Under the pieces are notes generated by a model that ran no database searches, was not told where the DNA came from, and saw nothing but the letters and a program-made list of their open reading frames with translations. A DNA stretch of 64,000 nucleotides from Latilactobacillus sakei subsp. sakei DSM 20017 = JCM 1157 (GTDB lineage: Bacteria; Bacillota; Bacilli; Lactobacillales; Lactobacillaceae). Both the position numbers and the translations under genes were made by a program. The stretch is from NCBI RefSeq assembly GCF_002370355.1, contig NZ_AP017929.1, forward strand, positions 372,001-436,000, in the 5' to 3' direction. Below are positions 3,139-18,189 of the stretch, in pieces. How positions within the stretch are numbered: the first letter of the stretch is position 1; each line of letters opens with the position of its first letter.

Positions 3139-3184
3139 TTACTAACTATTTATTAAATTCAAAATTAATGAAGGAGTGAGCAAT

Positions 3185-4510
3185 TTGGAAACAACTACAC
3201 AATCAACACCACATCTTTCGAGATCTCAAAAACATGCTGATAAGGCAGGCATGTCTTTAACGGAATGGCAGGCGGCCACTAAGTTTGACGGCACAGACTG
3301 GGGCTGGGTTTTTATGAGTATTGGTATGGCAATCGGTGCCGGCATTGTTTTTTTACCTGTTAAAGTCGGTTTAGTTGGCCTCTGGGTTTTCCTGGTTTCA
3401 GCTGTGATTGCTTATCCTGCTATGTATTTATTCCAAAAATTATTCATCAATACCTTAGCCGAATCTGAAAAATGCGAAGACTATCCTAGTGTTATCAGTA
3501 GTTATTTGGGTAAAAATTGGGGCTTCCTACTAGGTGTTCTCTACTTTTTAATGCTACTAATCTGGGTATTTGTTTATTCCACTGCGATTACAAATGATAG
3601 CGCTTCATTTTTACATTCCTTCCATGTTACTAAAACAGTCTGGTCAAATAACCCATTTTATGGGTTGATCGTTATTTGTTTGCTCGTCGCAATTGCTTCT
3701 CGTGCCGAAAAATTACTTTTCAAAATTTCATCCTTTATGGTTTGTACGAAACTAATCATTGTCTTTGTCCTCGGCGTTGTGATGATCCAACATTGGGATC
3801 TTAGAAATGTTGCAGCATTTCCTGATTTAGGTTACTTAATTAAACAAACAATCATCTTGCTTCCTTTCACACTCACTTCTATTTTATTCCTCCAATCCTT
3901 ATCACCAATGGTTATTTCGTTTAGATCCCACAATAAAAATATTGAAGTAGCACGCTATAAATCAATTCGTGCCATGAATATTGCCTTTTTCACACTATTT
4001 TTCGTTGTCTTCTTCTATGCCATTTCATTCAATCTTGCTTTAGGTCATGACCAAGCAGTTGAAGCTTACGAGAAGAACATCTCGACACTCGCCATTGCTG
4101 CTCAGAATATGAACGGTAATTCAATTAAAATTCTCAGTTTCATTTTAAATATTTTCGCTGTTATGACGGCCTTCTTTGGTGTCTTTCTTGGATTCCATGA
4201 AGCCTGTCAGGGAATTGCCGTTAATATTTTACATCGGATTATGCCAAAGCATAAGATTAACAAAAAGAACCTTAGCTTCGGTATTTTAATCTTCGCTATC
4301 CTAGTTTCTTGGAGCGCAATCTTACTAAATGCTCCCGTTTTAAGTTTTACATCATTATGTTCACCAATTTTCGGAATGATTGGTTGTTTAATCCCCGTCT
4401 ATCTTGTCTATCGTGTTCCCGCTCTCAATAAGCTCAAGGGTCCTAGCCTATATCTCATCGTTTTTACCGGTATTCTACTGATGATTTCACCGTTCTTAGC
4501 ATTCATTTAA
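3185..4510 (+). CDS. cyuP: HAAAP-family amino-acid permease, CyuP/SdaC-like
   Basis: A membrane protein of about 441 aa with around 11 hydrophobic segments. The first, 'GWVFMSIGMAIGAGIVFLP', carries the glycine-rich signature of hydroxy/aromatic amino-acid permeases (SdaC/YhaO type). The TTG at 3185 is the better start: AAGGAG (3171-3176) is 8 nt upstream, whereas GTG at 3176 overlaps it. It lies 23 bp before the L-cysteine desulfidase gene; the same pairing is known in E. coli (cyuPA, formerly yhaOM). Cysteine uptake is inferred from that pairing; serine transport is the main alternative. Confidence 0.82.
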   Translation: METTTQSTPHLSRSQKHADKAGMSLTEWQAATKFDGTDWGWVFMSIGMAIGAGIVFLPVKVGLVGLWVFLVSAVIAYPAMYLFQKLFINTLAESEKCEDYPSVISSYLGKNWGFLLGVLYFLMLLIWVFVYSTAITNDSASFLHSFHVTKTVWSNNPFYGLIVICLLVAIASRAEKLLFKISSFMVCTKLIIVFVLGVVMIQHWDLRNVAAFPDLGYLIKQTIILLPFTLTSILFLQSLSPMVISFRSHNKNIEVARYKSIRAMNIAFFTLFFVVFFYAISFNLALGHDQAVEAYEKNISTLAIAAQNMNGNSIKILSFILNIFAVMTAFFGVFLGFHEACQGIAVNILHRIMPKHKINKKNLSFGILIFAILVSWSAILLNAPVLSFTSLCSPIFGMIGCLIPVYLVYRVPALNKLKGPSLYLIVFTGILLMISPFLAFI

Positions 4511-4533
4511 AAAATAAATAAGGAGTGATTATT

Positions 4534-5829
4534 ATGTCTTTACAATCAAAACATTTCATTCAAGCCCTCAAAAATGGTGTCGTGCCCGCTACCGGTTGTA
4601 CTGAACCAATTGCCGTTGCCTTTGGGGCCGCAACTTGTATGGCCCAACTGACTAATCGCGAGATTCAAGCCATTGAGGTGCACGTTTCACCAAACGTGAT
4701 GAAAAATGCCCTAGCGGTTATGGTCCCTGGTACTGGCGAACCTGGTTTATTAGTTGCTGCGGCCGCGGGGGCAATTGCTGGTGACGCGACGGTTGGCCTC
4801 AGCGTTATTGAAGGCCTTCGCGCTACAGACTTACCAACCATTCTAGACCTCGCTCATTCTGGTAAAGTGACTGCTAAAACAGCACTTGTCCCTGACGATT
4901 TATATGTTGAAGTGACCATTAAAGATCTTGAAAATACGGTCACCGTTGCGATTGCTGGCAGCCATACCAATATCTTTTCTTTAAAAAAAGATAACCAAAT
5001 TTTAATTGACCACCCCCGTCCCGCGGCGCACGCGAGCTCTGAATCAAAACAATTTTTACAAACTATGAACTTTAAGGCTGTTTGGGATTTTGCCATGAAC
5101 GAACCATTGGAACACCTTCGTTTCATGAAAGAGGCGCACACCCTTAATTTAGCGCTTGCCCAAGATGGCTTTACGCACGACTATGGTCTTCAACTCGGCC
5201 AATCAATTAATGGTGCCAAACGTAATCACTTTGGTTCTGGCACTGAAAACGATCTTGGTAATCGGATGATTGCTTACGCGGCAGCGGCTTCCGATGCGCG
5301 CATGGGTGGTGCGCAATTACCTGCGATGTCCAACTCTGGTTCCGGTAATCAAGGCATCACAGCTACCATTCCGGTCAGCGTAGCGGCAGATGCCGTTCAG
5401 GCGACTGAGGAACAGCTGATTCGGGCACAAACATTATCCCATCTCACCGCCCTATACATTCACTCATTTTTGCCCGTCTTATCCGCCTTTTGCGCGACTG
5501 ATTCGGCCGCAATGGGGGCCGCGGCTGGTGTGGTTTATCTCTATGACGGAACTTACGAAGATGCTTGTCATGCGATTCAAAACATGGCTGGCGACGCGGC
5601 CGGGATGATCTGCGACGGGGCCGGCTGTGCTTGTGCCATGAAAGTCGCCACCGCCGTTTCCTCAATGTACCGCGGCGTTAACCTCGCCTTGCAAGGAATT
5701 GTTATTCCAAATAGTAACGGCATTGTCTGCCCAACAATCGATGAGACAATTCACGGCATCGGACGTTTAGGCACAGAAGGCCTTCGGGAAACAGACCCTG
5801 TGATTTTAGATATTATGTTAAATAAATAA
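4534..5829 (+). CDS. cyuA: L-cysteine desulfidase, CyuA/YhaM (UPF0597) family
   Basis: A 431-aa protein of the YhaM family, an iron-sulfur enzyme that degrades L-cysteine to pyruvate, ammonia and sulfide. The conserved GCTEP motif lies near residue 25, and the C-terminal cysteine cluster 'ICDGAGCACAMKV' fits the [4Fe-4S] ligands shared with L-serine dehydratases. Length matches the family (about 430-440). AGGAG (4521-4525) is 8 nt before the ATG at 4534; the GTG at 4525 overlaps it. It forms an operon with the permease upstream and is followed by a strong terminator. Confidence 0.88.
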   Translation: MSLQSKHFIQALKNGVVPATGCTEPIAVAFGAATCMAQLTNREIQAIEVHVSPNVMKNALAVMVPGTGEPGLLVAAAAGAIAGDATVGLSVIEGLRATDLPTILDLAHSGKVTAKTALVPDDLYVEVTIKDLENTVTVAIAGSHTNIFSLKKDNQILIDHPRPAAHASSESKQFLQTMNFKAVWDFAMNEPLEHLRFMKEAHTLNLALAQDGFTHDYGLQLGQSINGAKRNHFGSGTENDLGNRMIAYAAAASDARMGGAQLPAMSNSGSGNQGITATIPVSVAADAVQATEEQLIRAQTLSHLTALYIHSFLPVLSAFCATDSAAMGAAAGVVYLYDGTYEDACHAIQNMAGDAAGMICDGAGCACAMKVATAVSSMYRGVNLALQGIVIPNSNGIVCPTIDETIHGIGRLGTEGLRETDPVILDIMLNK

Positions 5830-5830
5830 A

Positions 5831-5878
5831 AGAACCGTCTTGCGTGCCTAATATTGGCATTCAAGACGGTTCTTTTAT
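5831..5878. terminator. Bidirectional terminator after the cysteine desulfidase gene
   Basis: Long stem with outer arms AGAACCGTCTTG / CAAGACGGTTCT and an inner GTGCC/GGCAT part; T-rich on both outer sides. It serves this gene and the convergent HAD pseudogene. Confidence 0.85.
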
Positions 5879-5881
5879 TGT

Positions 5882-6535
5882 TTAAATTAAATCAATTGTA
5901 GCTGTTAAATCTGCCACTTCATGTTGCATTACGGTTGTTGGTAAAGCCTGGGCTTGCTTGCGGTTAACCCAAATCCGTTGCCAATTCAGGCGCTGACAAG
6001 GAATGATATCCCACCAATAACCGGCAGCAATATGCAAATGCTCCTCGTTAGTCACCATTAATTGATCAGCAACTTGGCCAAAGAAATTAAGCGTTGGTTT
6101 ATAACAGTTTAATTGATCAGAGGTGTATAAATAATCAAATTCAACTGGGATTTGCGCCAAATTCTGCTTGAGAATTGGTAACGAAGCATCCGTCATAATT
6201 CCTAATTGAATCCCCTTAGCCTTCATTGTTTTCAAAAAATCGATGACTTCTGGGAAAACTTTTAAATTAGCCTGCACCGTTAACATTTGCGTTAAATCTG
6301 CATTCTCGTACTCATAATTGAAATCATGCGCACAATACCGCAAGGCTTGTTCGATGACCTGTTCGTAAGGCATGAAATATTCGCCATACATCATTCAATC
6401 TTCATACAGCTCAAAAGCTTTTTGAAAAAGTCCGCGATCAATCTGATGTTGCACGCCAATTTCTCCCGCAGCCTCATAAAATGGTGCCGTATCAACCAAC
6501 GTCCCATAACAATCAAAAGTGATTAATTTTATCAT
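5882..6535 (-). pseudogene. HAD-superfamily hydrolase with in-frame TGA
   Basis: From the ATG at 6535 the frame reads MIKLITFDCYGTLVDT, the HAD motif I with its nucleophile Asp (haloacid-dehalogenase type II class). At codon 47 a TGA (6397-6395) interrupts it, and the same frame continues to 5882 with motif II 'GIMTDAS' and the motif III lysine region 'SDQLNCYKP'. One C-to-T change in a CGA codon would explain the stop. Total length (~217 codons) fits the family. The 3' part has an internal ATG at 6394, but a product from it would lack the nucleophile. Confidence 0.85.
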
Positions 6536-6630
6536 CTGCCAACCAACCCTTCAGCCTATCATTTTCTAACTACCCCCTATTTTAAACCACTAATCCTCCA
6601 ACCACAATCGCGTTAACTTTCAAAATAAAA

Positions 6631-6659
6631 TTGACAAAATGTCATCAACTCATTACAAT
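6631..6659 (+). promoter_or_regulatory. Strong sigma-A type promoter of the XRE/membrane-protein pair
   Basis: TTGACA (6631-6636), 17-nt spacer, TACAAT (6654-6659). An AACTAGTT palindrome lies at about 6668-6675, near the expected transcription start, and is a possible operator for the XRE protein encoded just downstream. Confidence 0.75.
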
Positions 6660-6702
6660 TTGAAAGTAACTAGTTCATTACATTATGGAAGGAGTTCGTT
6701 AC

Positions 6703-6909
6703 GTGATTCAAAATCGCATTAAAGTCTTACGCGCTGAGCGCAACTGGACCCAGGCTGACCTCGCCGAACGAACCGGCATTTCCAGGCAAGCCGTGATTTC
6801 AATCGAAAAGTATAAATATACACCCTCATTAGAACTCGCTTTTAAGATTGCGCAGGTCTTTGGGGTCGAAATAACAACTGTCTTTTCACCAGAGGAGGAT
6901 TCAAAATGA
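6703..6909 (+). CDS. Short XRE-family HTH regulator
   Basis: A 68-aa one-domain protein: 'NRIKVLRAERNWTQADLAERTGISRQAVISIE' is a clear Cro/C1-type HTH. GTG at 6703 is the likely start, 8 nt after AAGGAG (6689-6694); an ATG at 6685 precedes that site. It overlaps the downstream membrane-protein gene by four bases (ATGA), so the two are translationally coupled. Such pairs of a short XRE protein and a small membrane protein are common in Firmicutes; their signal is generally unknown. Confidence 0.88.
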   Translation: MIQNRIKVLRAERNWTQADLAERTGISRQAVISIEKYKYTPSLELAFKIAQVFGVEITTVFSPEEDSK

Positions 6910-7229
6910 AGCAACTCATCATGTTAATTCTGATTATGCTGTTAGCAGTTTTCATCTTTTTAGATCTTCACTTCAAACACAATAAGTCGCGGGCCTACCA
7001 GAACGATGAACGCTGGCAATTAATCACCATCAAAGCCGCTAAGGTGATGGCTATTTTTCTTGATTCAATCGTTATTTTACTGGCACTGGCCATGACTTAT
7101 TTCTTACTAACTGATGGTGGTAGTGAAATGATGACCATCAGTGACGCTGTCAGCGATGCTTTTTACATCTACGCACTCAAGTATCCCGTTGAATATTGCG
7201 CCTACCGTTACTACGATCAAGTCCTATAA
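6906..7229 (+). CDS. Small membrane protein coupled to the XRE regulator
   Basis: A 107-aa protein with an N-terminal hydrophobic helix (residues ~4-20), a second near 46-68 and a weaker third near 83-95, ending in 'YCAYRYYDQVL'. The arrangement resembles DUF2178-like partners of short XRE regulators. The start overlaps the regulator stop as ATGA. It may act as the membrane sensor or target of the regulator; this is inference. Confidence 0.7.
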   Translation: MKQLIMLILIMLLAVFIFLDLHFKHNKSRAYQNDERWQLITIKAAKVMAIFLDSIVILLALAMTYFLLTDGGSEMMTISDAVSDAFYIYALKYPVEYCAYRYYDQVL

Positions 7230-7270
7230 TATTAAAACGTTAATTCGTTATAGAAAAGAGCCCCTTATTC

Positions 7271-8017
7271 ATGTCATTTATCCAATTGAGTTTTACATTA
7301 ATTCTGATTGGCGTGGCAGCCGGCATCGTTAGTACCGTCGGCGGTCTCGCATCACTCGTTTCATACCCAGCCCTACTCGCACTCGGGTTACCACCGGTCA
7401 CGGCCAATGTCACCAACACCGCGGGCTTAATCTTCACCGGCGTTGGCGCATCACTGGCTTCACGCAAGGAATTGAAACACCAAAAACGGGAACTCATCAC
7501 GCTTTTACCGTTAACCTTAATTGGCTGTATTGTGGGGGCCTTATTACTCTTTAAAATTCCAGCAGAAACATTCCAAAAAATTGTCCCCTTTTTCATTTTA
7601 TCTGCCGGCATTTTAATCCTCTTACCACGCCATCTCCAAGTTGGTCAACCCGCTAAATGGCAAGTTAGCCTCGCTTGGCTCGGTGTTTTCTTAGTCGGCA
7701 TTTACAGCGGCTACTTCGGTGCTGCTTCTGGTGTCTTGATGCTATCACTGCTCTCAGTCATCAGCCAAGCGCCTTTCCAAGAATATAACGCCACCAAAAA
7801 TCTAACGATGGGCCTCGCGAACTGTATCGCAACACTAGTCTACGCGCTTCAAACGACCATCAATTGGGGCCTTGTCTTGCCCCTTGGAATCGGCTTTTTG
7901 ATTGGCGGCCTCATTGGTCCCATCATCGTCCGTCTACTACCAGAACGCCTAACTAAAATTGGGATTGGCATCGCCGCACTAGGACTAGCAGTTAGTTTAT
8001 TTATGCAAGCCTATTAA
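7271..8017 (+). CDS. TauE/SafE-family membrane transporter
   Basis: A 248-aa protein with 7-8 hydrophobic helices. The N-terminal 'LIGVAAGIVSTVGGLASLVSYPALLALGLPP' region and the mirrored 'FLVGIYSGYFGAASGVLMLSLL' half are the duplicated glycine-rich motifs of the TauE/SafE (sulfite exporter-like) family. Members export sulfite, sulfoacetate or related organic anions; the substrate here is not determined. The Shine-Dalgarno site (AAAAGAG) is weak. It is followed by a strong terminator. Confidence 0.85.
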   Translation: MSFIQLSFTLILIGVAAGIVSTVGGLASLVSYPALLALGLPPVTANVTNTAGLIFTGVGASLASRKELKHQKRELITLLPLTLIGCIVGALLLFKIPAETFQKIVPFFILSAGILILLPRHLQVGQPAKWQVSLAWLGVFLVGIYSGYFGAASGVLMLSLLSVISQAPFQEYNATKNLTMGLANCIATLVYALQTTINWGLVLPLGIGFLIGGLIGPIIVRLLPERLTKIGIGIAALGLAVSLFMQAY

Positions 8018-8067
8018 AAAAAGTCTGTCATCATTTAGTATCCCACTAAATTTATGACAGACTTTTT
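8017..8067. terminator. Terminator after the TauE/SafE gene
   Basis: AAGTCTGTCAT ... ATGACAGACTT with an inner TTAGT/ACTAA pair and T/A runs on both sides; probably bidirectional with the convergent small membrane-protein gene. Confidence 0.85.
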
Positions 8068-8089
8068 TGTTAAAAGAGATTACGACAAC

Positions 8090-8245
8090 TTATTTTTTAC
8101 GGATATAATGCTTCAAAATAATCGCAATTGCTAACACAGTTACTAGTAATAGCGTCTTTTTAAAATCCGTCACAAATCTAAAAATAAGCACGCCAAATAG
8201 TAGTAAAACTATAATGGTAATTACTAAATCAACTATTCTCTTCAT
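8090..8245 (-). CDS. Small membrane protein in the PadR operon
   Basis: A 51-aa protein starting MKRIVDLVITIIVLLLFG, with two hydrophobic helices separated by 'FRFVTDFKK' and ending in 'KHYIRKK'. The ATG at 8245 overlaps the PadR stop as ATGA and is preceded by a GAGGGGA-like site. Two-helix proteins of this kind often accompany PadR regulators. No function can be assigned. Confidence 0.7.
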   Translation of the reverse strand: MKRIVDLVITIIVLLLFGVLIFRFVTDFKKTLLLVTVLAIAIILKHYIRKK

Positions 8246-8760
8246 TGTATCCCCTCTGCTAGTTGTTCTTGCAGCCACTCCAAATTAACTTCGTGGTGTC
8301 GTTTTGAGTTGGCCATCATTTTGATAAACATCGGTTGTAGATTGGTTGCGGTATTTAATGCCGCTTCAATCGCTTGGATTTTTTCCTTAGTTTGTGCAAT
8401 TTGGCTCTGCAAGAGTTCGCGCATTTGCGTTGGTTCAACTTGATCAGTGAATAGTAGTGGTGTGTAGAATGGGAAAGTAATCGGCTTATTCTGCCCGCCA
8501 TAATGGGCGAACTGTTTTTCAAAAGCCGCTTCTCCCCCCGCAGTCAGCACATAGCGATTTTTCTCGCGCTTATCACTGGCATCATCCACTATTTTTTCAA
8601 TCAATTGCTTTTCCGCTAGTTGTTGTAAGTTGTAGTAAAAAGAACCCTTCGTAAAGTTCAAAAAGAATTCGAAATAATTGTTTTCCATATCAGCTAATAA
8701 TTCGTAGCCATAAGCACCTGGCTTTTTCTTCAATAAACCCAAAATTAGAAACTGAATCAT
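8242..8760 (-). CDS. PadR-family transcriptional regulator
   Basis: A 172-aa protein. The N-terminal winged helix ('FLILGLLKKKPGAYGYELL', 'FTKGSFYYNLQQLAEKQLIE', 'KNRYVLTAGG') is diagnostic of PadR; the C-terminal ~70 residues form a dimerisation helix pair in the style of the longer PadR subfamily. Its ATG overlaps the stop of the esterase gene (ATGA) and its own stop overlaps the next ATG, so three genes are coupled. A perfect 20-bp palindrome at 9637-9656 is the likely operator. Confidence 0.9.
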   Translation of the reverse strand: MIQFLILGLLKKKPGAYGYELLADMENNYFEFFLNFTKGSFYYNLQQLAEKQLIEKIVDDASDKREKNRYVLTAGGEAAFEKQFAHYGGQNKPITFPFYTPLLFTDQVEPTQMRELLQSQIAQTKEKIQAIEAALNTATNLQPMFIKMMANSKRHHEVNLEWLQEQLAEGIQ

Positions 8761-9608
8761 TTGGCAGTCCCCTTGCCCGTTAATTGCGCGATGAATTCTG
8801 GATAGCTCATTTGTCCAAGTGCAAAAGCACGACTCAAGCGATACATCTTTTCCTGCGGGGTTTCTGGCCGTTGATAAAGTACTCCTAATTGAGCAGCTTC
8901 ATCTGGCAGTACCGCGAGGACATCCTCTTGGTTGGCAAAAGCAGCGTAATAGCGCAAGCCAAAGCGCCGTTGTGAGGCCGCATCGATGTGAATGCCATCA
9001 GGATTGGCCGTTAATTCGGCGGCGTTGACTAAGTAACTATGGGGATCTTGCGCAACCACGTTCGCCATTTCCCGATTAATGTCATTGAATTCTGTCGCAC
9101 TAGCGCCGAACCCTTCTTGGCCTAAAAAATCTGGTAATTGCCCGACAATAATGGGTAAGTCTGCTTGACCCAATGCTTGACGTAAATGACTAAAGACCGC
9201 CGTTAACTTGGCAGCATACGTTTGATAACCGCCTTTTAGACTATCGCTTTCCCCTTGGTGCCATAATACCCCAATTAACTCGCTAGATTCCTGTGCGAAT
9301 TTGGCTTCAGCAATCGCGTGGCGCATCAACATTTCGTCACTCGCCCACTCATCGATTGAACTGCCCCCTTCAGCACACGGAATTAAACCTAATTCTTCAT
9401 CCAGGTGCGCCTGGACCCAAGCCGCCGCAAATGATGCAGCCGGCCCAACACCCGCAACCTCGCGATCAAAATGAATTGGTTCGGCCATCATTTGCCAGCG
9501 CCCATTGCGCAACATCTTCACGCGCTCGTGCCGCAATCCCGGCACATCTTGAATAAATCCCCGCCCGGCCATATTTGACTGACCGACTAATAAAATTGAC
9601 TTCATCAT
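8757..9608 (-). CDS. SGNH/SASA-domain esterase (sialate O-acetylesterase-like)
   Basis: A 283-aa protein with all SASA/SGNH marks: block I 'LLVGQSNMAGRG' with the nucleophile Ser, the Gly block 'EGGSSIDEW', block III 'LWHQGESD', and the terminal Asp-x-x-His 'DGIHID'. Such enzymes deacetylate sugars on polysaccharides or glycans. No signal peptide is seen, so it is probably cytoplasmic. ATG at 9608 follows AGGAGG (9615-9620) by 6 nt; an upstream in-frame start would extend through promoter sequence. First gene of the PadR operon. Confidence 0.82.
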   Translation of the reverse strand: MMKSILLVGQSNMAGRGFIQDVPGLRHERVKMLRNGRWQMMAEPIHFDREVAGVGPAASFAAAWVQAHLDEELGLIPCAEGGSSIDEWASDEMLMRHAIAEAKFAQESSELIGVLWHQGESDSLKGGYQTYAAKLTAVFSHLRQALGQADLPIIVGQLPDFLGQEGFGASATEFNDINREMANVVAQDPHSYLVNAAELTANPDGIHIDAASQRRFGLRYYAAFANQEDVLAVLPDEAAQLGVLYQRPETPQEKMYRLSRAFALGQMSYPEFIAQLTGKGTAK

Positions 9609-9636
9609 AAAAATCCTCCTGAACTGATTTTTATAG

Positions 9637-9656
9637 CATAGTCTAATTAGACTATG
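9637..9656. promoter_or_regulatory. Perfect 20-bp palindrome, probable PadR operator
   Basis: CATAGTCTAATTAGACTATG is identical to its reverse complement and lies 28 bp upstream of the esterase start, next to a TATAAA-like -10 on the minus strand. Its place in the leader of the only PadR-containing operon here suggests autoregulation. Confidence 0.7.
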
Positions 9657-9660
9657 AATG

Positions 9661-9699
9661 CAAAAAGAAACCACAATTTAGATTTAAATTGTGGTTTCT
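9661..9699 (-). terminator. Terminator of the defence operon
   Basis: Perfect 15-base arms (9666-9680 and 9685-9699, AGAAACCACAATTTA type) with a 4-nt loop, followed in minus orientation by a T run at 9665-9662. It closes the minus-strand operon that runs from 14709. Confidence 0.85.
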
Positions 9700-9704
9700 A
9701 AATA

Positions 9705-9875
9705 TTAACGGCACTTTTTACACCATGATTGATTTCGTATAACGTTATTTCCCATGTCACGTCAACCAAACTCACTCAATGGCTTTTCTATCTGACATTT
9801 TGGGCAAATCCTGGTAGGTTCATTCCCGTTATAACCTGTGGTATTAACTTCTGTCTTTTTAAATTCTTGGTTCAT
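9705..9875 (-). pseudogene. Small zinc-ribbon protein with in-frame TGA
   Basis: From ATG 9875, 17 bp inside the 181-aa gene and after a GGTGG-like ribosome site, the frame gives 56 residues with two Cys pairs: 'RICPKCQIEKPLSEFG' and 'NQSWCKKCR'. A TGA at codon 38 (9764-9762) separates them. C-x2-C ... KPLSEF ... C-x2-C is the zinc-ribbon pattern found alone or in front of HNH nucleases. The conserved sequence on both sides of the stop indicates a recent nonsense change (a TGG or CGA codon). It is the last gene of the defence operon. Confidence 0.65.
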
Positions 9876-10404
9876 CTATTTCACCACCTAACTCATCTAT
9901 AAAATCATCCATGATTTGCTTATTTTCTTTATCCGTTAAATACTCATAAATCGAATCAAAAATATCCTCTTCTTTGTCTCCGTACTGAAAAATAATCTCA
10001 TCTACATATTCAATACCACCCAAAAAGTACTGATAGAACGTAGATACATTAGGAAGTTCAAAATACCGTTCACCATTTGTATTTTTTAAGAAAGCTTTTT
10101 TATTTAACACTTCTGTATACGGTTCATTCAAGCTATCAATTATCGTTAATAAACCAAAATCTCTATCCATTTCAACCATTGCCCTTTGATAAACAGTTCT
10201 AGATAAAGAACGTTTTTTCACCTCGCCATTGGGTCGATTATCCAAAGCTATTTTACTGCTGTTATTTATCCCCAATAAAGCTGTTAAAAACTGCACTCCT
10301 TCACCTGACAATCCATGATTGCTCAGAAAGTTATCACTTCTAGTGTATTCTTCAGTTTGATAATAAAAAGAAAAATCAGTTGGGTTCATCATATTATTAC
10401 TCAT
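9859..10404 (-). CDS. Unknown 181-aa acidic protein of the defence operon
   Basis: Not recognised. It is soluble and acidic, mostly helical in appearance, with a very acidic C-terminal third ('YGDKEEDIFDSIYEYLTDKE') and no membrane segment or catalytic motif that I can see. Its ATG overlaps the end of the DndD-like ATPase gene by eight bases, so it is co-translated with it and probably acts in the same complex or pathway. A role as a specificity or regulatory subunit is possible but is not shown by the sequence. Confidence 0.7.
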   Translation of the reverse strand: MSNNMMNPTDFSFYYQTEEYTRSDNFLSNHGLSGEGVQFLTALLGINNSSKIALDNRPNGEVKKRSLSRTVYQRAMVEMDRDFGLLTIIDSLNEPYTEVLNKKAFLKNTNGERYFELPNVSTFYQYFLGGIEYVDEIIFQYGDKEEDIFDSIYEYLTDKENKQIMDDFIDELGGEIDEPRI

Positions 10405-12439
10405 TTATTTCGTCATCCTCGTTTACATACTCTTCAACATTATTCGTATCAATTATTCGTGACACAACATTTCCCATCATATCCTTAGATAACTCATATG
10501 CACATGAGATATTATTGTGTATTCCAGTAATTAACTCATTTCGAAGCTGCGCTTTAAATGATAAGAAAATTAGTTGGTCAAACGAATTTAATATTCTACT
10601 ACTAATTTGTTTAATATGTTCTTCATCCAGATTAGAAAGTGCTGCATCCATAATAACTCCGCTACTTTGAATATCATCGAACTCCGCGTGTTGTTCAACA
10701 GTCATCAATAATGCTTTTAAAAATGATAGATACATCATTACATTTTGCCCTGTAGATAAAACCTCAGTCTCATCTTGCAATCGTTTATCATCTACTTTTT
10801 TATAGACTGTTAATTTATATTCTGAATCTAGTTCTACCTCGTAATGTTGATCCATTACCTCTGTGAGAACTAAGTTCATATTTTTTTCAATCGATTCACG
10901 AGCAATATTTTTCTTATTATCTAATTCTTCCTCAATCTCTAACTTCAATTGATTGAGCATTTTTAGTGATGCATTTACATTCCTATTATGTTGACTATTA
11001 AACTGTATTTTCTTTAGTTCTGAGCTAAGTTCATTAACAACTCGTTGGTTGCTTTCGATAGACTTTTCGTTAATATCAATATTATACAGAATACGGGCCT
11101 TAGTTGCTCTAAGATGTTCAATATCCACTTGATTTTTTGCTCCAATTTCCTCCTCTTTTTTTATAACTTTTTCAATCGCGTGCTCACCCTCCTTTCTTAA
11201 TTCTTCTAATTTTTTCTTAGCCAATACTAATTGATTATGATATTTCGTTATACTTTTTCGTAGACTTGGAAGATTAGCAAGAGAATTATATAAGCTCCTT
11301 AATGCATTTAAATAGTTAGCGTTGTCTTGAGGAAGTACTGATAACTCTCTCAGATGCTCTGCTTCAATACTACCTGTATGAACCTCACGTCCACAAATAC
11401 ATTTATGCCTTCTCAAAATATCTTCAACAACCGACTGATATAAGTTTTCAAATACTTCTGTCTGTTCCTCTTCCTTTGCAATAAACTTCTCATACTTTTT
11501 ATATGTTTTTGCAACTTCTAATTTTAGTAATAATTCAACAGCGCAGTCGTTAGCTCTTCTTCTTAATTCTTCTATTTCACGTTCTTGTGCAGATATTTTG
11601 GACTCAGCAATTTTCTTTACTTGAACTAACAATTCAAGTTTCTCAATACTTTTTTGTGCTTCAGTAGCAACTTCAATATCTTTCGTTAAACTCTCCACTT
11701 GGTTTTGACGTATCACAATCTCTTGTTTTAATTGTGTAATATTCTCCTCAGCACTAGCATACCGATCTAAAACCTCTTGCTCAGTAGAACCTATTGGTAC
11801 TAATTTCGCATGAACCTGCCCAATCACTGATCCTGATTTGGATTTGTTTCCCAAAAAATCTCTTGCCTGTTCAAGTTTTTTCAAACCCAACACACCTACT
11901 ATTGAATCCTTTAAATCATTTTTAAATTCTGTACTTCCAATTGGCTTTTCAACACGTTCCCCATCAAACATGTAAACATGTGCCAATCCAGTAGGAATCA
12001 TTTCCTGAATTCTTTTTAGTCCATCTTCAACTTTTATTGCACCGCGATTTTCTGTTTCTTCCCATAATTCAAAGCTATCGTCTGAATTTTTTGTAAGTTT
12101 TTGCATCTTACGGTTAAACATTCTAAATCTAACTGTTCTAACCGCTATATAATCTTTACCGTTATGTTGAAACTTAACTTGTACCGAAAGTGGCTGCTCA
12201 TCCATTTCACTCATATTATTTTCTACTGAGTAATTTAATAATTCTTCACTCTTAGGTAATTTTAAAACATTTGGACTTTCCCCATAAAAGCAAAAACGGA
12301 ACGCTTGTAAAAAAGTTGTTTTCCCAACACCGTTACGAGCAATGATTAACGTGATTTTTCGATCATTTATTGGGAATACAAATTTATTTTCACCCTTAAA
12401 TTGTCTAAAGTTAATCAGTTTTAGTTCTTTAAAAATCAT
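10397..12439 (-). CDS. DndD-like SMC/Rad50-type ATPase
   Basis: A 680-aa ATPase. Walker A 'ARNGVGKTT' lies near residues 33-42, followed by long coiled-coil arms with a central 'CICG' hook-like cysteine motif near residue 345, then the ABC signature 'LSTGQ' near 560 and a Walker B/D-loop 'VIMDAALSNLD' near 600. This order matches DndD and related SMC-like defence ATPases. The start overlaps the preceding 54-aa gene by 11 bases. No DndA, DndB, DndC or DndE gene is present, so DNA phosphorothioation is not expected; the ATPase probably serves a separate DNA-sensing or restriction complex with the helicase upstream. Confidence 0.82.
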   Translation of the reverse strand: MIFKELKLINFRQFKGENKFVFPINDRKITLIIARNGVGKTTFLQAFRFCFYGESPNVLKLPKSEELLNYSVENNMSEMDEQPLSVQVKFQHNGKDYIAVRTVRFRMFNRKMQKLTKNSDDSFELWEETENRGAIKVEDGLKRIQEMIPTGLAHVYMFDGERVEKPIGSTEFKNDLKDSIVGVLGLKKLEQARDFLGNKSKSGSVIGQVHAKLVPIGSTEQEVLDRYASAEENITQLKQEIVIRQNQVESLTKDIEVATEAQKSIEKLELLVQVKKIAESKISAQEREIEELRRRANDCAVELLLKLEVAKTYKKYEKFIAKEEEQTEVFENLYQSVVEDILRRHKCICGREVHTGSIEAEHLRELSVLPQDNANYLNALRSLYNSLANLPSLRKSITKYHNQLVLAKKKLEELRKEGEHAIEKVIKKEEEIGAKNQVDIEHLRATKARILYNIDINEKSIESNQRVVNELSSELKKIQFNSQHNRNVNASLKMLNQLKLEIEEELDNKKNIARESIEKNMNLVLTEVMDQHYEVELDSEYKLTVYKKVDDKRLQDETEVLSTGQNVMMYLSFLKALLMTVEQHAEFDDIQSSGVIMDAALSNLDEEHIKQISSRILNSFDQLIFLSFKAQLRNELITGIHNNISCAYELSKDMMGNVVSRIIDTNNVEEYVNEDDEINE

Positions 12440-12593
12440 ATTTTTTTCCCACCAATCTAACTACTTTATCTACTTTATCCCTTACAGATGTTTTTACACC
12501 TTCATTTATATACTCTTCAGCCACTTTTAAAAGAAGTTCTTTAGTTTCAACTAATTTCTCGTAGTCTACTGTATTTTCATTTTCTTCATTCAT
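12429..12593 (-). CDS. 54-aa protein between helicase and ATPase
   Basis: Starts MNEENENTVDYEKLVETKEL and ends 'VGKKYDF'; a charged, helical small protein without recognised motif. The ATG at 12593 is preceded by GGAGG (12603-12607) with 9-nt spacing and overlaps the helicase stop by eight bases; its 3' end overlaps the ATPase start by 11 bases. The tight coupling on both sides says it is a real gene and likely a small subunit or regulator. It does not resemble DndE. Confidence 0.7.
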   Translation of the reverse strand: MNEENENTVDYEKLVETKELLLKVAEEYINEGVKTSVRDKVDKVVRLVGKKYDF

Positions 12594-14709
12594 CTTCTTT
12601 TTCCTCCAAATATCTATCAAACAATTCTTGATATTCATCTAAGATTTCATTTCTATTTTTTGCAGCCTTTGAAAATTCTCCTATTCGTTTTAATTCTGTC
12701 ATATTTATTCCGTCATACTCGGATTCTTCTCCCAAAACGACCATATCATAAATAATGGCAATCTCTTTTCCCGCGGATTTTCTTAATAATCGACCTCTTC
12801 GTTGTATAAATTCACGCGGATTTCCCGAGCTCGCCATAATAATACCAATCGATATTTCAGGAATGTCGACCCCTTCATCTAATGCCTTAATAGCCACTAA
12901 AGTGTCTATTACACCATTTTTGAATGCATCAATTCTATCTTGTCTCTCATTACCATTCTCATCTTTAGTATATTGAGCAGCTAGAATTCCTTTACCCTTT
13001 AACATCTGATTTACAATTTCAATTTGTTTTTTACTTGCCTCAGTATTACTCTGATCTAGCTCATTTCCCTCGTCATCTCCAGCAATTCCTTCAGACAAGG
13101 AGGTTGCTCCACAATAGATCAACATATTTCTTTGATCTTTTAATTTATCAAGTAACGATTCCAACTTAATTATTTTGTCATATGCCCCATAAATAATTCT
13201 TGCTCTCTTAAAGAGTAACATCTGCGCCTCAAGTGACAACCCCTCTAAACTATTTTCGTCATCATTACCTAACATCTTCACTATTTTATGCGTTAACTCT
13301 TTATACTTTTCCATTTCATCATCAGATAGTCTAACTTTCACAGGATGGTACTCATATTGTGTTAGCTTTCCGTCTTCTATTGCTTTTTCTAAACTATATT
13401 CAGCTATAATACCTCCAAAGTAGTTAAACAAGCGGTCTGTTTTTTCTTCAGACATATAAATACTAGGGGTTGCTGAAAGTCCTAGTCGTCTTTCTACACT
13501 AGGCAGGCTATTCAATAAGTTATCAGTCCCCAGACGATGGCATTCATCCGCTAAAAAAACATAGTCCTTATTTAATTTCTTAATTTGACGCGTGAATTTT
13601 TCACCATGGAATGTTTGATTAGTCGTTACGATAAATAAGGGTTCATCCGGTTCAAGTTTCCAATAGTCTATTTTATTTTTTAATTGATTAACCCATTGGT
13701 TGTTTTCAGAATAACATTTCACTAAATTACCCCAGTAATTCAACAGCTCTTTAGACCATTGCTCTACTAACGTTTTATCAGGAACCGTAATTAAGAAAAC
13801 TTTTGCTCCTTCTTTTTTCATTAATTGATCGAACGCATAAATAGCAGTTTTTGTTTTACCGGTTCCTGTTGCAAATGCAATAATCCCCTTACTTTTTTCC
13901 ATCCACGTCTCTGCTGCAACTTTTTGATAATCATACGGATCGAATCCTAACCTTTCAGTCTCATTCTTCGGCTCATTCTGTTTTTCTAACCCACCATGTC
14001 TACTTAGTTTAGAATATAACGTTTTTATACTTTCATCTGTTTCATATTCACGAAGTACATCGTCATCTACTGCCTCCTGTAATGACAGCATGTGGTATTC
14101 GTTAAGGTTACCTTGCCAAGTATCCTCAAATTGTTCCTTAAATGTATCGATGTACAACTCTTGTCCGTTGATCCAGGATCTAAATGTACTAAACGATTCT
14201 AAATTGTGCTCTACAGAGCCTTGGGTTTCATTGTTAGATCCGTTTATTGCAATCGTATCTCCTAATTCGTCATAAAATAAAGCGATTTTTTCATGAAATA
14301 AACCTAAGTTATTGTTAGGAACGATAACTCTAACTTCCAATATACCGTCCATAATTAATCGATAGAGAATCTGTGCAGAGATTTGTGCATCATTCCCATC
14401 TAGTCTAAAATTCCTAAATAGTTCATTAAGAGATCCTGAAATAGAACTAATTTTATTAATAGAATCTAAAAAAACTTCCCCATCTTTTTTTGTTATAAAT
14501 GGTGAAATAATTAATCTTATTTTTCCGTTATTTTCTACAAATTTCTCTAATCCATCAATATATGCTATTAAAATATTAGATGAAAAATATCCAACCGCCC
14601 TATCATAACGTACAGCTTTGCTTAAGACTGGCACATAAAATTCATCTATTACTTGGTTGACTGTTGTTCGATATTGTATTTTTAAGTTTTTTAAATCAGT
14701 ACTAAACAT
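12586..14709 (-). CDS. PLD-domain / superfamily 2 helicase fusion
   Basis: A 707-aa two-part protein. Residues ~1-190 form a phospholipase-D-like nuclease domain with 'FHEKIALFYD' (HxK) near 137 and 'GSNNET' near 156. Residues ~260-700 form an SF2 helicase: Q-like 'FDPYDYQKVA', Walker A 'ATGTGKTKT' (~280), DECH box (~386), 'LSATPS' (~411) and motif VI 'QRRGRLLRKS' (~635). The architecture is shared with proteins annotated as phosphorothioation-dependent restriction enzymes. ATG 14709 has GGAGG 9 nt upstream; the GTG at 14748 has no such site. It heads the operon. A DNA translocase with nuclease activity is inferred. Confidence 0.85.
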   Translation of the reverse strand: MFSTDLKNLKIQYRTTVNQVIDEFYVPVLSKAVRYDRAVGYFSSNILIAYIDGLEKFVENNGKIRLIISPFITKKDGEVFLDSINKISSISGSLNELFRNFRLDGNDAQISAQILYRLIMDGILEVRVIVPNNNLGLFHEKIALFYDELGDTIAINGSNNETQGSVEHNLESFSTFRSWINGQELYIDTFKEQFEDTWQGNLNEYHMLSLQEAVDDDVLREYETDESIKTLYSKLSRHGGLEKQNEPKNETERLGFDPYDYQKVAAETWMEKSKGIIAFATGTGKTKTAIYAFDQLMKKEGAKVFLITVPDKTLVEQWSKELLNYWGNLVKCYSENNQWVNQLKNKIDYWKLEPDEPLFIVTTNQTFHGEKFTRQIKKLNKDYVFLADECHRLGTDNLLNSLPSVERRLGLSATPSIYMSEEKTDRLFNYFGGIIAEYSLEKAIEDGKLTQYEYHPVKVRLSDDEMEKYKELTHKIVKMLGNDDENSLEGLSLEAQMLLFKRARIIYGAYDKIIKLESLLDKLKDQRNMLIYCGATSLSEGIAGDDEGNELDQSNTEASKKQIEIVNQMLKGKGILAAQYTKDENGNERQDRIDAFKNGVIDTLVAIKALDEGVDIPEISIGIIMASSGNPREFIQRRGRLLRKSAGKEIAIIYDMVVLGEESEYDGINMTELKRIGEFSKAAKNRNEILDEYQELFDRYLEEKEDE

Positions 14710-14795
14710 ATCACTAGTCCTCCGAGTGTCATAGGATAAATTAATCACTAACTATTCTATAAGTGTTATTGTACCGCATTAGCTTTCTATTCACT

Positions 14796-14809
14796 ACAGT
14801 TATAACTGT
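14796..14809. promoter_or_regulatory. Palindrome upstream of the helicase operon
   Basis: ACAGTTATAACTGT is a perfect 14-bp palindrome. A TACAAT -10 candidate lies downstream of it in minus orientation (about 14773-14768). A possible repressor site for the defence operon; no cognate regulator is encoded in the island. Confidence 0.45.
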
Positions 14810-14831
14810 TATTCGTCACCTATTTTTAAGC

Positions 14832-14860
14832 AAAAAAATGGCTAGATTAATCTAGCCATT
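14832..14860 (-). terminator. Terminator of the DpnA-like methylase gene
   Basis: AATGGCTAGATTAATCTAGCCATT is a perfect palindrome (arms AATGGCTAGA with TTAA centre; 14837-14860) followed in minus orientation by a T run. It separates the methylase from the helicase operon, so these are independent transcription units. Confidence 0.85.
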
Positions 14861-14871
14861 AAATATAATAA

Positions 14872-15645
14872 TTATTTAATTTTTCCTAATTTTTCCTCTT
14901 GAAAATTTGATACTCTTTTTATTGCTATATTTAAATAATCTTGTGAGTTATCTATTCCAATCGTTCTTATCCCATTCCTTGCTCCTGCAACTGCAGTTGT
15001 TCCAGAACCTACAAATGGATCTAACAATATCATCCCAGAATCTGTGCTTGCTTTTACCATTCTATCAATAACAGACAATGGCTTTTGGGTTGGGTGTCTT
15101 CCGAATCGGCGCTCATAATTATTAATAGTTGGTGTCGTCCAAACATCCTTCATCTGACTACTATGATTTAATTCTTTCATTAAATCATAATTAAAGAATT
15201 GTTTTCCACTCTCTTTTTTTGCCCAAATAATAGTTTCAGTTGAATGTGTGAACATCCTCTTACTTAAATTAGGAGCTGGGTTGGACTTTTGCCAAGTAAT
15301 ATTATTTAATATCTTAAATCCATATTTTGGCAATAAATACCCTAATATGTATATATTATGCATCGAACCAAATACCCATATTGTACCATCTTTTTTTAAA
15401 ATTCGATCCGCAGATCGAATAAGTCTTGTATAAAATACCTCAGGCTTTACATCATTAATTTTATCCCACTCTCCTTTGTTGACGCTAACCATCTTACCTC
15501 CACTATTCGAAAAACCCCCGTTACTTAAAAAGTATGGAGGATCAGCAATAATTACATCCACTGAATTCGAGGGGAATCTTTGCATACACTCAAACGTGTC
15601 ACTACAGATCAATTTAACTAGTTCATCTTTGTAAACTTGTTTCAT
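14872..15645 (-). CDS. DpnA-like adenine DNA methyltransferase (beta class)
   Basis: A 257-aa methyltransferase with motif order of the beta class: catalytic 'DPPYFLSNGG' near residue 33 first and the AdoMet-binding 'DPFVGSGTT' near 210 last. The central 'NNITWQKSNPAPNLS', 'HSTETIIWA' and 'RHPTQKP' segments match DpnA, the second methylase of DpnII-type systems, which can modify single-stranded DNA at GATC. The start at 15645 is 8 nt after AGGTGG; a GTG at 15657 overlaps it. Divergent from the Dam-like methylase. GATC specificity is inferred from family. Confidence 0.88.
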   Translation of the reverse strand: MKQVYKDELVKLICSDTFECMQRFPSNSVDVIIADPPYFLSNGGFSNSGGKMVSVNKGEWDKINDVKPEVFYTRLIRSADRILKKDGTIWVFGSMHNIYILGYLLPKYGFKILNNITWQKSNPAPNLSKRMFTHSTETIIWAKKESGKQFFNYDLMKELNHSSQMKDVWTTPTINNYERRFGRHPTQKPLSVIDRMVKASTDSGMILLDPFVGSGTTAVAGARNGIRTIGIDNSQDYLNIAIKRVSNFQEEKLGKIK

Positions 15646-15861
15646 AATAATCACCACCTATTAAACCTATACACATTACTGCTTCATTTTTTTCATACTT
15701 AAGAAGTTTATTCTTGAGGTGCCCTGTCTTACCAATACTATTAAAGAAAATTAGAATTTAAATGAAGAAACAAAGTCCTTCAGGTCTCGAATAACACTAT
15801 TAAATCCCCCTATTTTGGTGTATCATTATACAAACATACGTTTTATATAGAGGTGAAAAAA

Positions 15862-16725
15862 ATGAATAAGAACCCACTTGTTAAGCCATTCGTGAAGTGG
15901 GCTGGTGGCAAACGTCAATTAATCCCCCAAATAACAAAGTATATGCCAAAAACTTTTGGAAGGTACTACGAACCTTTTGTTGGTGGAGGTGCTGTCTTTT
16001 TTCAACTGCAGTATAATAAATCTACTATTAATGACTTCAATACTGAACTTTTCCTTGCATATAATGCTGTTAGGGATAACATCGACGAATTAATTAGCAA
16101 CTTAAAAATTCACGAAGCAAATACCAGTAGTGACTATTATTATGAAGTTCGTGAGTGGGATAGAAATGGAATTATTGATACCAAATCAAATGTTGAACGT
16201 GCTGCTCGTTTTATATTTTTGAATAAAACCGGATTTAATGGCTTATTCAGAGTTAATAGTCAAAATCAAATCAACACACCCTATGGTAAATATAAAAACC
16301 CAGCAATCGTTAATGAGATAGTTCTACGACATGTAAGTAAATTTTTAAATAAATCAACTATCAAAATTATCAACGGCGACTTCGAAGATGCTGTCAAAGG
16401 GGCAAGAAGGGGAGATTTTATATATTTTGATCCTCCATACGCCCCAATGGTCAATGATCGGCAAAGCTTTGTAGGCTACACATTAAACGGTTTTGGCGCA
16501 GATGAACAAGAGCGTTTACGAGATCTTGTAGATCGTCTGACTGCCAAAGGCGTTAAAGTAATGCTCAGTAACTCCTCTGTCCCTTATATCCATGAAATTT
16601 ATGCTAATTATAAAGATACAACTGTAATTGTGCCGGCATCTCGTAGTATAAATTCAAAAGCAACAGGCAGAGGTAAAGTGGATGAAGTTTTAATCATGAA
16701 CTATAACTACCTTGATGAAAATTAA
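15862..16725 (+). CDS. DpnM/Dam-like adenine DNA methyltransferase (alpha class)
   Basis: A 287-aa protein with the alpha-class order: 'FVKWAGGKRQL' at residues ~10-20, 'YYEPFVGGGAVFF' AdoMet-binding motif, and catalytic 'FDPPYAP' near 189. 'KTGFNGLFRVNSQNQINTPYG' is also typical of DpnM/Dam enzymes, which methylate adenine in GATC. ATG at 15862 is 6 nt after GAGGTG; the GTG at 15853 overlaps that site. The endonuclease gene follows after 18 bp, so modification is made before restriction. Confidence 0.9.
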   Translation: MNKNPLVKPFVKWAGGKRQLIPQITKYMPKTFGRYYEPFVGGGAVFFQLQYNKSTINDFNTELFLAYNAVRDNIDELISNLKIHEANTSSDYYYEVREWDRNGIIDTKSNVERAARFIFLNKTGFNGLFRVNSQNQINTPYGKYKNPAIVNEIVLRHVSKFLNKSTIKIINGDFEDAVKGARRGDFIYFDPPYAPMVNDRQSFVGYTLNGFGADEQERLRDLVDRLTAKGVKVMLSNSSVPYIHEIYANYKDTTVIVPASRSINSKATGRGKVDEVLIMNYNYLDEN

Positions 16726-16743
16726 TCTAATAGAGGGATTGTT

Positions 16744-18015
16744 ATGACAAAAGCAAATGACGCTTGGACTCAATTATTTGATAAGTATCATATTCTAGAT
16801 CAAATAGATACTAATGGTATTTTTAATATCTCCGCAAAACAAATCAAAGAATTCTATGAACCTAGACTAATAACAAAGTATGATTGGTCATCTAGTTTAC
16901 CCGAGTTATTTAAGAAAAATAAGTTAGTAATACTACCTTCCTCACGTGGAACATATACAATCGGTAGATTCAAAGCATACCAGAAATTAAAATATGAAAA
17001 TATACGACCAATCGTTAAAACTCTCCCTTCTTGGGTAAGTACTTGGGACTCGTTTGGTATTACATCAGAAGCAGTAGCTTTAAATGTCGCAAAAGCCTCA
17101 GGTATGATTGATCACATCCTAATGAGCGATCAAAATTTCCCCGCTATTGATACAATAACAGGTCGCCTAAAATCCGGTGATTTAAATTACAAAATTGCTC
17201 AAAGAGACGGTTCTTTATACGATTTTCATGTTGCTAATGCTCAGGTAGAGATTGATGCAGGCTTTGAAAGCTTTGATAAACTGGCTATCGTTGAGGCGAA
17301 AACCCACATACCTGAAGATTTCATTATTCGTCAACTCTATCATCCTTTTCGTGTTTATAATACTTTAGGAACACAAAAACCAGTCATTCCTCTATACTTT
17401 ACTTTTGCTGATGATATATATACTTTTTATCAATATGATTTTACTGATGTCAATAATTACTCATCTATTAAAAAGGTTGAACAATACTCTTTTATATTAA
17501 ATCGAACCTTAAACCTAAATTCAGATGTAGTAAAACAGATATCTCACCAAAGCCCCATGCTTCCAGAATCAACAGAAATCGTATATCCTCAAGCCAATAC
17601 ATTTCAAACAGTTTTAGATATGATGCAGTATTTAGCTACTCCTATTGATAAAAAAACTCTTGCTGAAAAATTTAATTTCGATGTTCGGCAAAGTGATTAC
17701 TATGCAAATTCTCTTAGGTTCTTAGGGTTAGCAAAAAGGGAACATAGTAAGTATGTATTAACTGATTTAGGTCAATCAATCAATATTTTACCCAACTCTG
17801 ACTTCCGCAATGAAAAAATTATTAGACAAATACTTAGCCATATCACTTTTAAACTCGTTTTTGACTCCTATTTAAAAAATAATGGCGAATCTGATGATTC
17901 CTATATCGATAGTGTCCTCGCAGAATATGTACCAAATATTAGTGGAAAAACTATTCCTCGTAGACGTAGTACAGTGAAACAATGGATTAGTTGGATTTTT
18001 TCAGTAATTGAATAG
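16744..18015 (+). CDS. Probable type II restriction endonuclease of the DpnM/DpnA-like system
   Basis: A 423-aa protein. 'QVEIDAGFESFDKLAIVEAKTHIP' around residues 167-190 fits a PD-(D/E)xK nuclease core (acidic residues then E-A-K), followed by 'IRQLYHPFRVY'. The C-terminal ~150 residues resemble winged-helix DNA-binding units ('FNFDVRQSDYYANSLRFLGL'). It is far larger than DpnII or MboI (about 280-290 aa) and resembles instead the larger nuclease families kept as domains of unknown function in databases. Restriction function rests on position after the methylase and on this motif. The target site is inferred as GATC or a site containing it. Confidence 0.72.
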   Translation: MTKANDAWTQLFDKYHILDQIDTNGIFNISAKQIKEFYEPRLITKYDWSSSLPELFKKNKLVILPSSRGTYTIGRFKAYQKLKYENIRPIVKTLPSWVSTWDSFGITSEAVALNVAKASGMIDHILMSDQNFPAIDTITGRLKSGDLNYKIAQRDGSLYDFHVANAQVEIDAGFESFDKLAIVEAKTHIPEDFIIRQLYHPFRVYNTLGTQKPVIPLYFTFADDIYTFYQYDFTDVNNYSSIKKVEQYSFILNRTLNLNSDVVKQISHQSPMLPESTEIVYPQANTFQTVLDMMQYLATPIDKKTLAEKFNFDVRQSDYYANSLRFLGLAKREHSKYVLTDLGQSINILPNSDFRNEKIIRQILSHITFKLVFDSYLKNNGESDDSYIDSVLAEYVPNISGKTIPRRRSTVKQWISWIFSVIE

Positions 18016-18189
18016 TATTAGCATCCCAAACTATAATTCCTATAATTAACAATACCTATTTTTAGAATCCGGCGTATATTTTAAAGCGTCACTATTCGTT
18101 TAATTGAGTCTTGCACCAGTAGGGCGTTTTTATACTTTTAATCTCCAAAAAAATCCGTATAAGTAATAACATAATCCTCAAAAACCACA

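Follow-up and report, generated by a model that had tools for sequence, protein, structure and literature searches.

A solitary PbeABCD operon beside predicted GATC adenine methylases in Latilactobacillus sakei

Introduction

In the DndCDEA-PbeABCD system of Haloterrigena jeotgali A29, PbeABCD works with the phosphorothioate (PT) motif G-PS-ATC (Xiong et al. 2019, PMC6459918). All four pbe genes mattered in this tested system, viral DNA was not degraded, and modified virus escaped. Protection was lost without the writer, and loss of dnd gave no growth defect, unlike in R-M systems (PMC6459918). In the survey by the same authors, 320 of the 553 PbeAC pairs have no dndCD within 10 kb, with Lactobacillus named among the carriers of such solitary Pbe; methylases lie within 10 kb in 155 of the 320, and 165 of the 553 have no writer of any kind within that distance. 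Two options were raised for solitary Pbe, namely that it is inactive or that it is paired with methylation (PMC6459918).

Rakesh et al. 2024 (PMC10853773) reread pbeABCD as an HKD-nuclease/SF2 helicase, a small disordered protein, a CxC ABC ATPase and a DndE cognate. In their account, the DndE cognate (PbeD) has two ribbon-helix-helix units, PbeC is sister to DndD, PbeB is proposed to be the trigger sensor, and the systems are described as occurring without Dnd and with cytosine methylases.

Here we describe an operon of this type in a window of 64,000 nucleotides from Latilactobacillus sakei subsp. sakei DSM 20017 = JCM 1157. Its PbeABCD identity and the existence of Dnd-less Pbe are already known; the new element is the methylase partner that we propose.

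Results

ORF and translation analysis resolved four minus-strand genes that overlap head to tail and together span 9859-14709 (Table 1). A preliminary description of this DNA had claimed such a tightly overlapped operon, encoding a PLD/SF2 fusion, a 54-aa protein, an ATPase with a CxC hook and an LSTGQ signature, and a 181-aa protein, and we recovered all four genes. It had also suggested that the system might be undescribed or a variant of a two-gene system. We rejected this idea, because a defence-profile search (PADLOC) calls PbeA and PbeC, so that the operon matches a catalogued system largely in full, and two papers (PMC6459918, PMC10853773) describe it as four-gene PbeABCD or CxC-ATPase systems. 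The small genes have no match to their own PADLOC models; PbeB and PbeD were therefore assigned by their place and by homologues at the equivalent place in relatives. The order A-B-C-D in one operon is the canonical PbeABCD order, and it recurs in the operons of relatives in other genomes. Gene order, domain types and approximate sizes are those of the H. jeotgali A29 system, whose PbeB has 66 aa and PbeD 152 aa. Likewise, the CxC hook, the HKD-SF2 fusion, the small disordered protein and the presumed DndE-like partner parallel the systems of PMC10853773. The operon is almost certainly the catalogued PbeABCD system.

Table 1. Positions of the pbe operon and its neighbours in the window.
Feature	Position	Strand	Description
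Inserted defence islet (whole)	9692..18184		8.5 kb; GC 31-35%, flanks about 39-43%
Terminator-like stem-loop	9666..9699	-	Downstream of pbe operon and zinc-ribbon remnant
Broken small zinc-ribbon gene	9705..9875	-	In-frame TGA at 9762-9764 (translation)
pbeD	9859..10404	-	181 aa; presumed DndE-like DNA-binding partner of PbeC
pbeC	10397..12439	-	DndD-related CxC-hook ABC ATPase, 680 aa
pbeB	12429..12593	-	Small charged protein, 54 aa; placed by position
pbeA	12586..14709	-	N-terminal PLD/HKD nuclease domain and SF2 helicase, 707 aa
Terminator-like stem-loop	14837..14860	-	Between methylase gene and pbe operon
CcrM/DpnA-like N6-adenine DNA methylase	14872..15645	-	Pfam N6_N4_Mtase 6.7e-46; CcrM model 213 bits, below cut-off
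Dam/DpnM-like N6-adenine DNA methylase	15862..16725	+	Predicted GATC; TIGR00571 289.6 bits, over cut-off
Type II restriction enzyme	16744..18015	+	DUF6996-DUF6997-DUF7226 (Pfam); PADLOC REase_II E 9.8e-67

PbeA starts at an ATG at 14709 with GGAGG upstream, and matches its PADLOC model PDLC02707 over 681 residues (E 8.5e-202). Its match to NCBIfam TIGR04095, the 'DNA phosphorothioation system restriction enzyme' domain (E 1.7e-123), scores 413 bits and so stays below the cut-off of 600 bits. With the Pfam domains PLDc_2, ResIII and Helicase_C, the protein presents the PLD/HKD nuclease fused to an SF2 helicase that is expected of PbeABCD. It contains a single HxK...GSNNE motif (H139, K141, G157-E161) and the helicase motifs ATGTGKT and DECH. 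Upon alignment, the HxK/GSNNE, Walker A and DECH positions are invariant or near-invariant among relatives, the nearest of which in other genera share 48-61% identity. Its profile finds some match in 14 of 398 family genomes, and a full-length one only in the window and in genome G346. Partial matches to PLD-helicases of about 870-910 aa (L007-L014) and to helicase-only proteins (L003-L006) were excluded from the counts of full-length Pbe, and a scan of viral contigs returned mostly distant helicase matches.

PbeC matches PADLOC PDLC02741 (E 1.9e-64) ahead of any DndD model (DndD E 1.7e-33), and against NCBIfam DndD (TIGR03185) it scores 105 bits, below the cut-off of 245.85. These matches uphold the claimed relation to DndD; the score below cut-off and the presence of the CxCG hook do not fit a true DndD modification ATPase. 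The protein combines an SMC/Rad50-type N-terminus with a Walker A motif, a CICG hook and an LSTGQ signature. Across seven aligned relatives this core (CxCG, Walker A, S-G signature and DA Walker B) is invariant, and the closest relatives from other genera are 37-45% identical to the window protein. A search of the PDB at E 1e-3 gave no sequence relative of PbeC. Because a contig scan using PbeC yielded one relative only, we used whole-genome family searches instead.

The 54-aa gene overlaps both pbeA and pbeC and stands where PbeABCD systems carry, between the A and C genes, a short protein that evolves fast. It found no family match of its own in the PADLOC search; the pbe operon on the Leuconostoc plasmid encodes a homologue (E 1.9e-9), and Enterococcus has a 53-aa gene in the pbeB position. 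PbeD is 36-46% identical to genes in the matching position of four relatives' pbe operons, and three of the 30 members of its family, the window copy not among them, match the PADLOC PbeD model. A PbeD profile applied to viral contigs showed no conserved stretch. A relation between PbeD and DndE is weakly supported: the profile match is weak (hhalign probability 27%, E 6.7e-4), and the AF2 model, built from two sequences, repeats a beta-alpha-alpha unit twice at low confidence (mean pLDDT 39).

The zinc ribbon that the preliminary description had included in the operon is not an intact gene. Because its frame is broken by a stop, and an intact homologue that adjoins dam on the Leuconostoc plasmid (L062:17271-17438) has Trp at the same position, the ORF is most likely a remnant. 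We rejected it as a fifth operon gene on account of this internal stop and of its absence, by pattern, at other Pbe loci, the dam-side Leuconostoc copy being the sole exception. Two terminator-like stem-loops were found where shuffled sequences give an expectation of 2.1, and the terminator reading of either one thus rests on its position.

The operon is part of an inserted islet, which contains exactly the pbe genes, the zinc-ribbon remnant, the two methylases and the restriction enzyme. Its flanks align collinearly with the sister species G093 (L111) at about 95-96%; there, unrelated DNA takes the place of the islet. At the equivalent site, sister species hold a Dsr2-like SIR2 (G093), a C5 R-M system (G062) and PDC-M49 (G025). 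The insertion site therefore is a defence hotspot, which Pbe and the methylases occupy together. The claimed defence-island setting next to an R-M system agrees with these data, the R-M genes lying immediately upstream of pbe. The two methylases and the restriction enzyme (14872-18015) had been given no weight in the earlier account, and they belong to the pbe islet.

The closest solved structure to the window's Dam is DpnM (2dpm, E 5.7e-85), and its recognition segment NGLxRxN...PxGxY agrees with those of DpnM and E. coli Dam. In Dam enzymes this segment reads GATC, the target of DpnII and Dam, and GATC specificity is predicted for the window methylases by homology. The other Dam proteins linked to Pbe share the NGLxRxN...PxG core, with the tyrosine varying in some and Leuconostoc reading NGLWREN. 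Homologues of the CcrM/DpnA-like methylase adjoin DpnII and Dam at two relatives' loci (L015 and L065), both of which have the PF04556 DpnII endonuclease. In its Dam/DpnM-like and DpnA-like methylases the window thus resembles DpnII-type R-M systems (DpnM, DpnA, DpnB), of which these relatives' loci carry the true DpnII. By contrast, the window's restriction enzyme is of the DUF6996/6997/7226 type rather than PF04556, and its two methylases are divergently transcribed. N6-adenine methylases of the Dam/DpnM and DpnA types also differ from the cytosine-5 and cytosine-N4 methylases named in PMC10853773.

DndC was not found in the whole genome of the strain at E 1e-3, nor in any of 17 Lactobacillales genomes tested, including this one, at E 1e-15, and at the locus we saw no PT writer, Dnd or Ssp, beside the operon. 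The lack of Dnd modification genes, as claimed from the window, thus extends to DndC in the whole genome. This sets the locus apart from DndCDEA-PbeABCD, and GATC-type adenine methylases are in the islet instead. Phosphorothioation is probably not what marks self DNA in this strain. The earlier picture of a stand-alone DNA-sensing nuclease system fits in so far as this is a DNA-directed defence operon without Dnd. Its 'stand-alone' part is open to doubt: in relatives a modification writer is often adjacent, and here the neighbouring methylase pair plausibly takes that place.

We next consider the Bacillota outside Lactobacillales, where 37 genomes have PbeA at E 1e-100. PT writers adjoin Pbe in 22 of them, divided evenly between Dnd (11) and Ssp (11): DndC is present in 12 genomes and lies within 15 kb of pbeA in 11, and SspB/C/D-like genes lie within about 9 kb in 11. 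Pbe therefore often keeps its writer next door. No Dam over the cut-off was found near Pbe in any of the 37. On plasmids of other phyla, Pbe is accompanied by SspABCD in Rhizobium and by a DNA methylase at or near the operon in Halococcus, Halobaculum, Haloprofundus and Aurantiacibacter. An Ssp-Pbe pairing was not found named in the literature searched, a scope that does not include the 2020 ABC-ATPase survey. At eight of the 37 loci, a protein of 958-1320 aa is encoded directly upstream of PbeA, in several cases with a sigma70-region-4-like helix-turn-helix.

Among the sampled Lactobacillales, five genomes have full-length PbeA. All five carry a Dam-family gene, within 6 kb of Pbe in four; the contig that carries pbe in the fifth (G680) breaks off inside pbeC. 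The background frequency of Dam is 27 of 197 Lactobacillales genomes (28 of 198 counting the window's own). As a control for proximity, none of 22 Dam-carrying genomes with HsdR has both within 10 kb (Fisher p 2.8e-4, or 0.0015 with the window excluded), a comparison made imperfect by fragmented assemblies. On Lactobacillales Pbe plasmids, Dam lies within about 6 kb in three of four; on the remaining one, the L. plantarum plasmid pL11478-1, Dam is absent within 9 kb of Pbe. The Pbe copies of the three L. plantarum plasmids are near-identical, so these plasmids do not count as independent. The data hold only about six independent Lactobacillales instances, and genus-wide searches for further Lactobacillales Pbe loci added no new independent case. 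Another PLD-helicase locus (G277) has Dam about 7 kb away.

The restriction enzymes next to these Dam genes are of several kinds. Enterococcus diestrammenae and pLQ802 have DpnII (PF04556), the window and G346 have DUF6997, Leuconostoc has a PDDEXK-like fragment, and next to the Dam of G595 no such enzyme was seen. The PbeA of G346 is closest to the L. plantarum protein (55%), yet the Dam of G346 is the outlier (37-39%). Such discordant identities suggest that Pbe and Dam were paired repeatedly rather than inherited together once.

Discussion

The operon is very probably a defence system. Taken as a whole, the locus is best explained as a solitary PbeABCD anti-virus system with islet N6-adenine methylation at GATC as its probable self mark, a reading that we consider likely. 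That it acts against viruses and that PbeC and PbeD scan DNA is inferred from published work on relatives. By analogy, PbeC, the CxC ATPase, and the DndE-like PbeD would search DNA for a short motif and read whether it is modified. Where invading DNA lacks the modification, their complex would load PbeA; the helicase of PbeA would then translocate, and its PLD/HKD domain would nick or cut, or block replication in some other way. PbeB, obligatory in the archaeal system, may be a small adaptor or regulator that is likewise required here. The Dam/DpnM-like and DpnA-like methylases of the islet's DpnII-style R-M system would place the N6-adenine mark at GATC. That GATC methylation in particular serves as the self mark of this PbeABCD, which we infer from genomic context and small samples, has in our view slightly less than an even chance. 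The R-M system has its own restriction enzyme, and the methylases may therefore serve that enzyme only; moreover, defence genes cluster anyway, which weakens a functional reading of Pbe-Dam proximity. More tentatively still, PbeABCD may be a reader-effector with an exchangeable writer, which in Lactobacillales paired repeatedly with Dam/DpnM of different R-M systems, N6-methyl GATC replacing PT at GATC as the self mark.

The main rival treats the R-M system as mere fellow cargo. PbeABCD would then work without a modification partner and sense a feature of the invader or of replication, such as ends, forks or, via PbeB, a phage protein. The terminator-like stem between pbe and the methylase suggests separate transcription, and Rakesh et al. 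(PMC10853773) propose a sensor role for PbeB; the survey loci devoid of any nearby writer and the harmless loss of dnd, unlike that of R-M, point the same way (PMC6459918). Against it, the tested system no longer protected once the writer was gone, and PT-modified virus was spared (PMC6459918), PT writers adjoin more than half of the Pbe loci in the other Bacillota, and Dam recurs by Lactobacillales Pbe with different restriction enzymes. We therefore hold partner-free action to be unlikely.

Xiong et al. also raised the option of an inactive solitary Pbe (PMC6459918), and a dead or dormant relic that lost its dnd writer would be in line with the broken zinc-ribbon gene beside it and with the Leuconostoc pbeC, which an IS30 element splits. 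In the window, however, all four pbe genes are open and overlapping. Intact genes with catalytic positions kept at 48-61% (PbeA) and 37-45% (PbeC) identity to other genera indicate continued selection, and we regard a relic as quite improbable. The Rad50/SbcC-like ATPase and the XPB-like similarity of the helicase could also recall a housekeeping SMC or repair complex. Such a role is extremely improbable given the patchy distribution of PbeA in the family, the low-GC islet at a site of other defence systems in sister species, and the presence of Pbe on plasmids.

The preferred reading, a solitary PbeABCD with a methylation self mark, can be tested directly in safe lactic acid bacteria, thanks to the shared GATC site, the pairing with Dam in Lactobacillales and that with Ssp in other Bacillota. 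The self mark of solitary PbeABCD, over half of the original survey, or whether such systems act at all, is the question that the naming authors left. If true, a single effector family would recognise two marks of different chemistry at the same motif, and a second restriction layer would ride on the methylase of a classical R-M system. The locus thus joins a known PbeABCD identity to a testable clue to the partners of solitary Pbe.

The defence hotspot and plasmid copies of pbe

The defence hotspot is bounded on one side by a SASA-family esterase gene and on the other by a 456-aa membrane protein/guaA, and the defence systems between them differ among sister species (the window's islet versus loci L111, L112 and L113). 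In two different families, variable defence DNA is flanked by a NUDIX gene and large helicase pair; the L111 helicase beside the NUDIX gene matches PADLOC mREase_IV.

The L. plantarum plasmid NZ_CP040377 (L064) carries pbeABCD twice, as near-identical copies in direct orientation, and an IS30-family element splits pbeC on the Leuconostoc plasmid CP065973 (L062). In the window's PbeC, alanine follows the Walker B aspartate (residues 598-599), replacing the usual catalytic glutamate; every one of the seven aligned PbeC proteins has the same DA pair.

Coordinates of Pbe-associated features
Feature	Locus	Position
Hotspot islet	window	9692-18184
pbeC	window	10397-12439
IS30-family element	L062	12953-13964
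pbeABCD, 249-aa protein gene, Dam gene (in order, one strand)	L068 (G595)	3168-9959
Large pbeA-upstream protein	L071	5457-8729
Same	L072	4491-8453
Same	L070, L074, L086, L089, L094, L099	
NUDIX + large helicase pair	L068	1-2502
Same	L111	5985-9293
Same	L113	7709-11020

Possible companions of Pbe

A protein of 958-1320 aa, encoded immediately 5' of pbeA in eight Bacillota genomes, is possibly another companion of Pbe; three of the eight match the Pfam sigma70-region-4 helix-turn-helix, and others are partially similar. The cleanest candidate Pbe-Dam unit lies in G595, where a 249-aa protein without assigned function separates pbeABCD from Dam, and no restriction enzyme was seen in the 3 kb examined beyond the Dam gene.

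SspBCD genes adjoin PbeABCD at Bacillota loci L091, L095, L097, L100, L101, L103 and L104, lie alongside it at L073, L075, L076 and L088, and stand side by side with it on a Rhizobium plasmid (L180). They encode a DUF4007 protein, an SspC-like ATPase and a PAPS reductase, usually accompanied by a cysteine desulfurase. In the literature searched, we found no paper naming such a pairing. Because SspBCD sits next to PbeABCD at these loci, many Pbe loci without dnd are partnered by Ssp, the other phosphorothioation writer.
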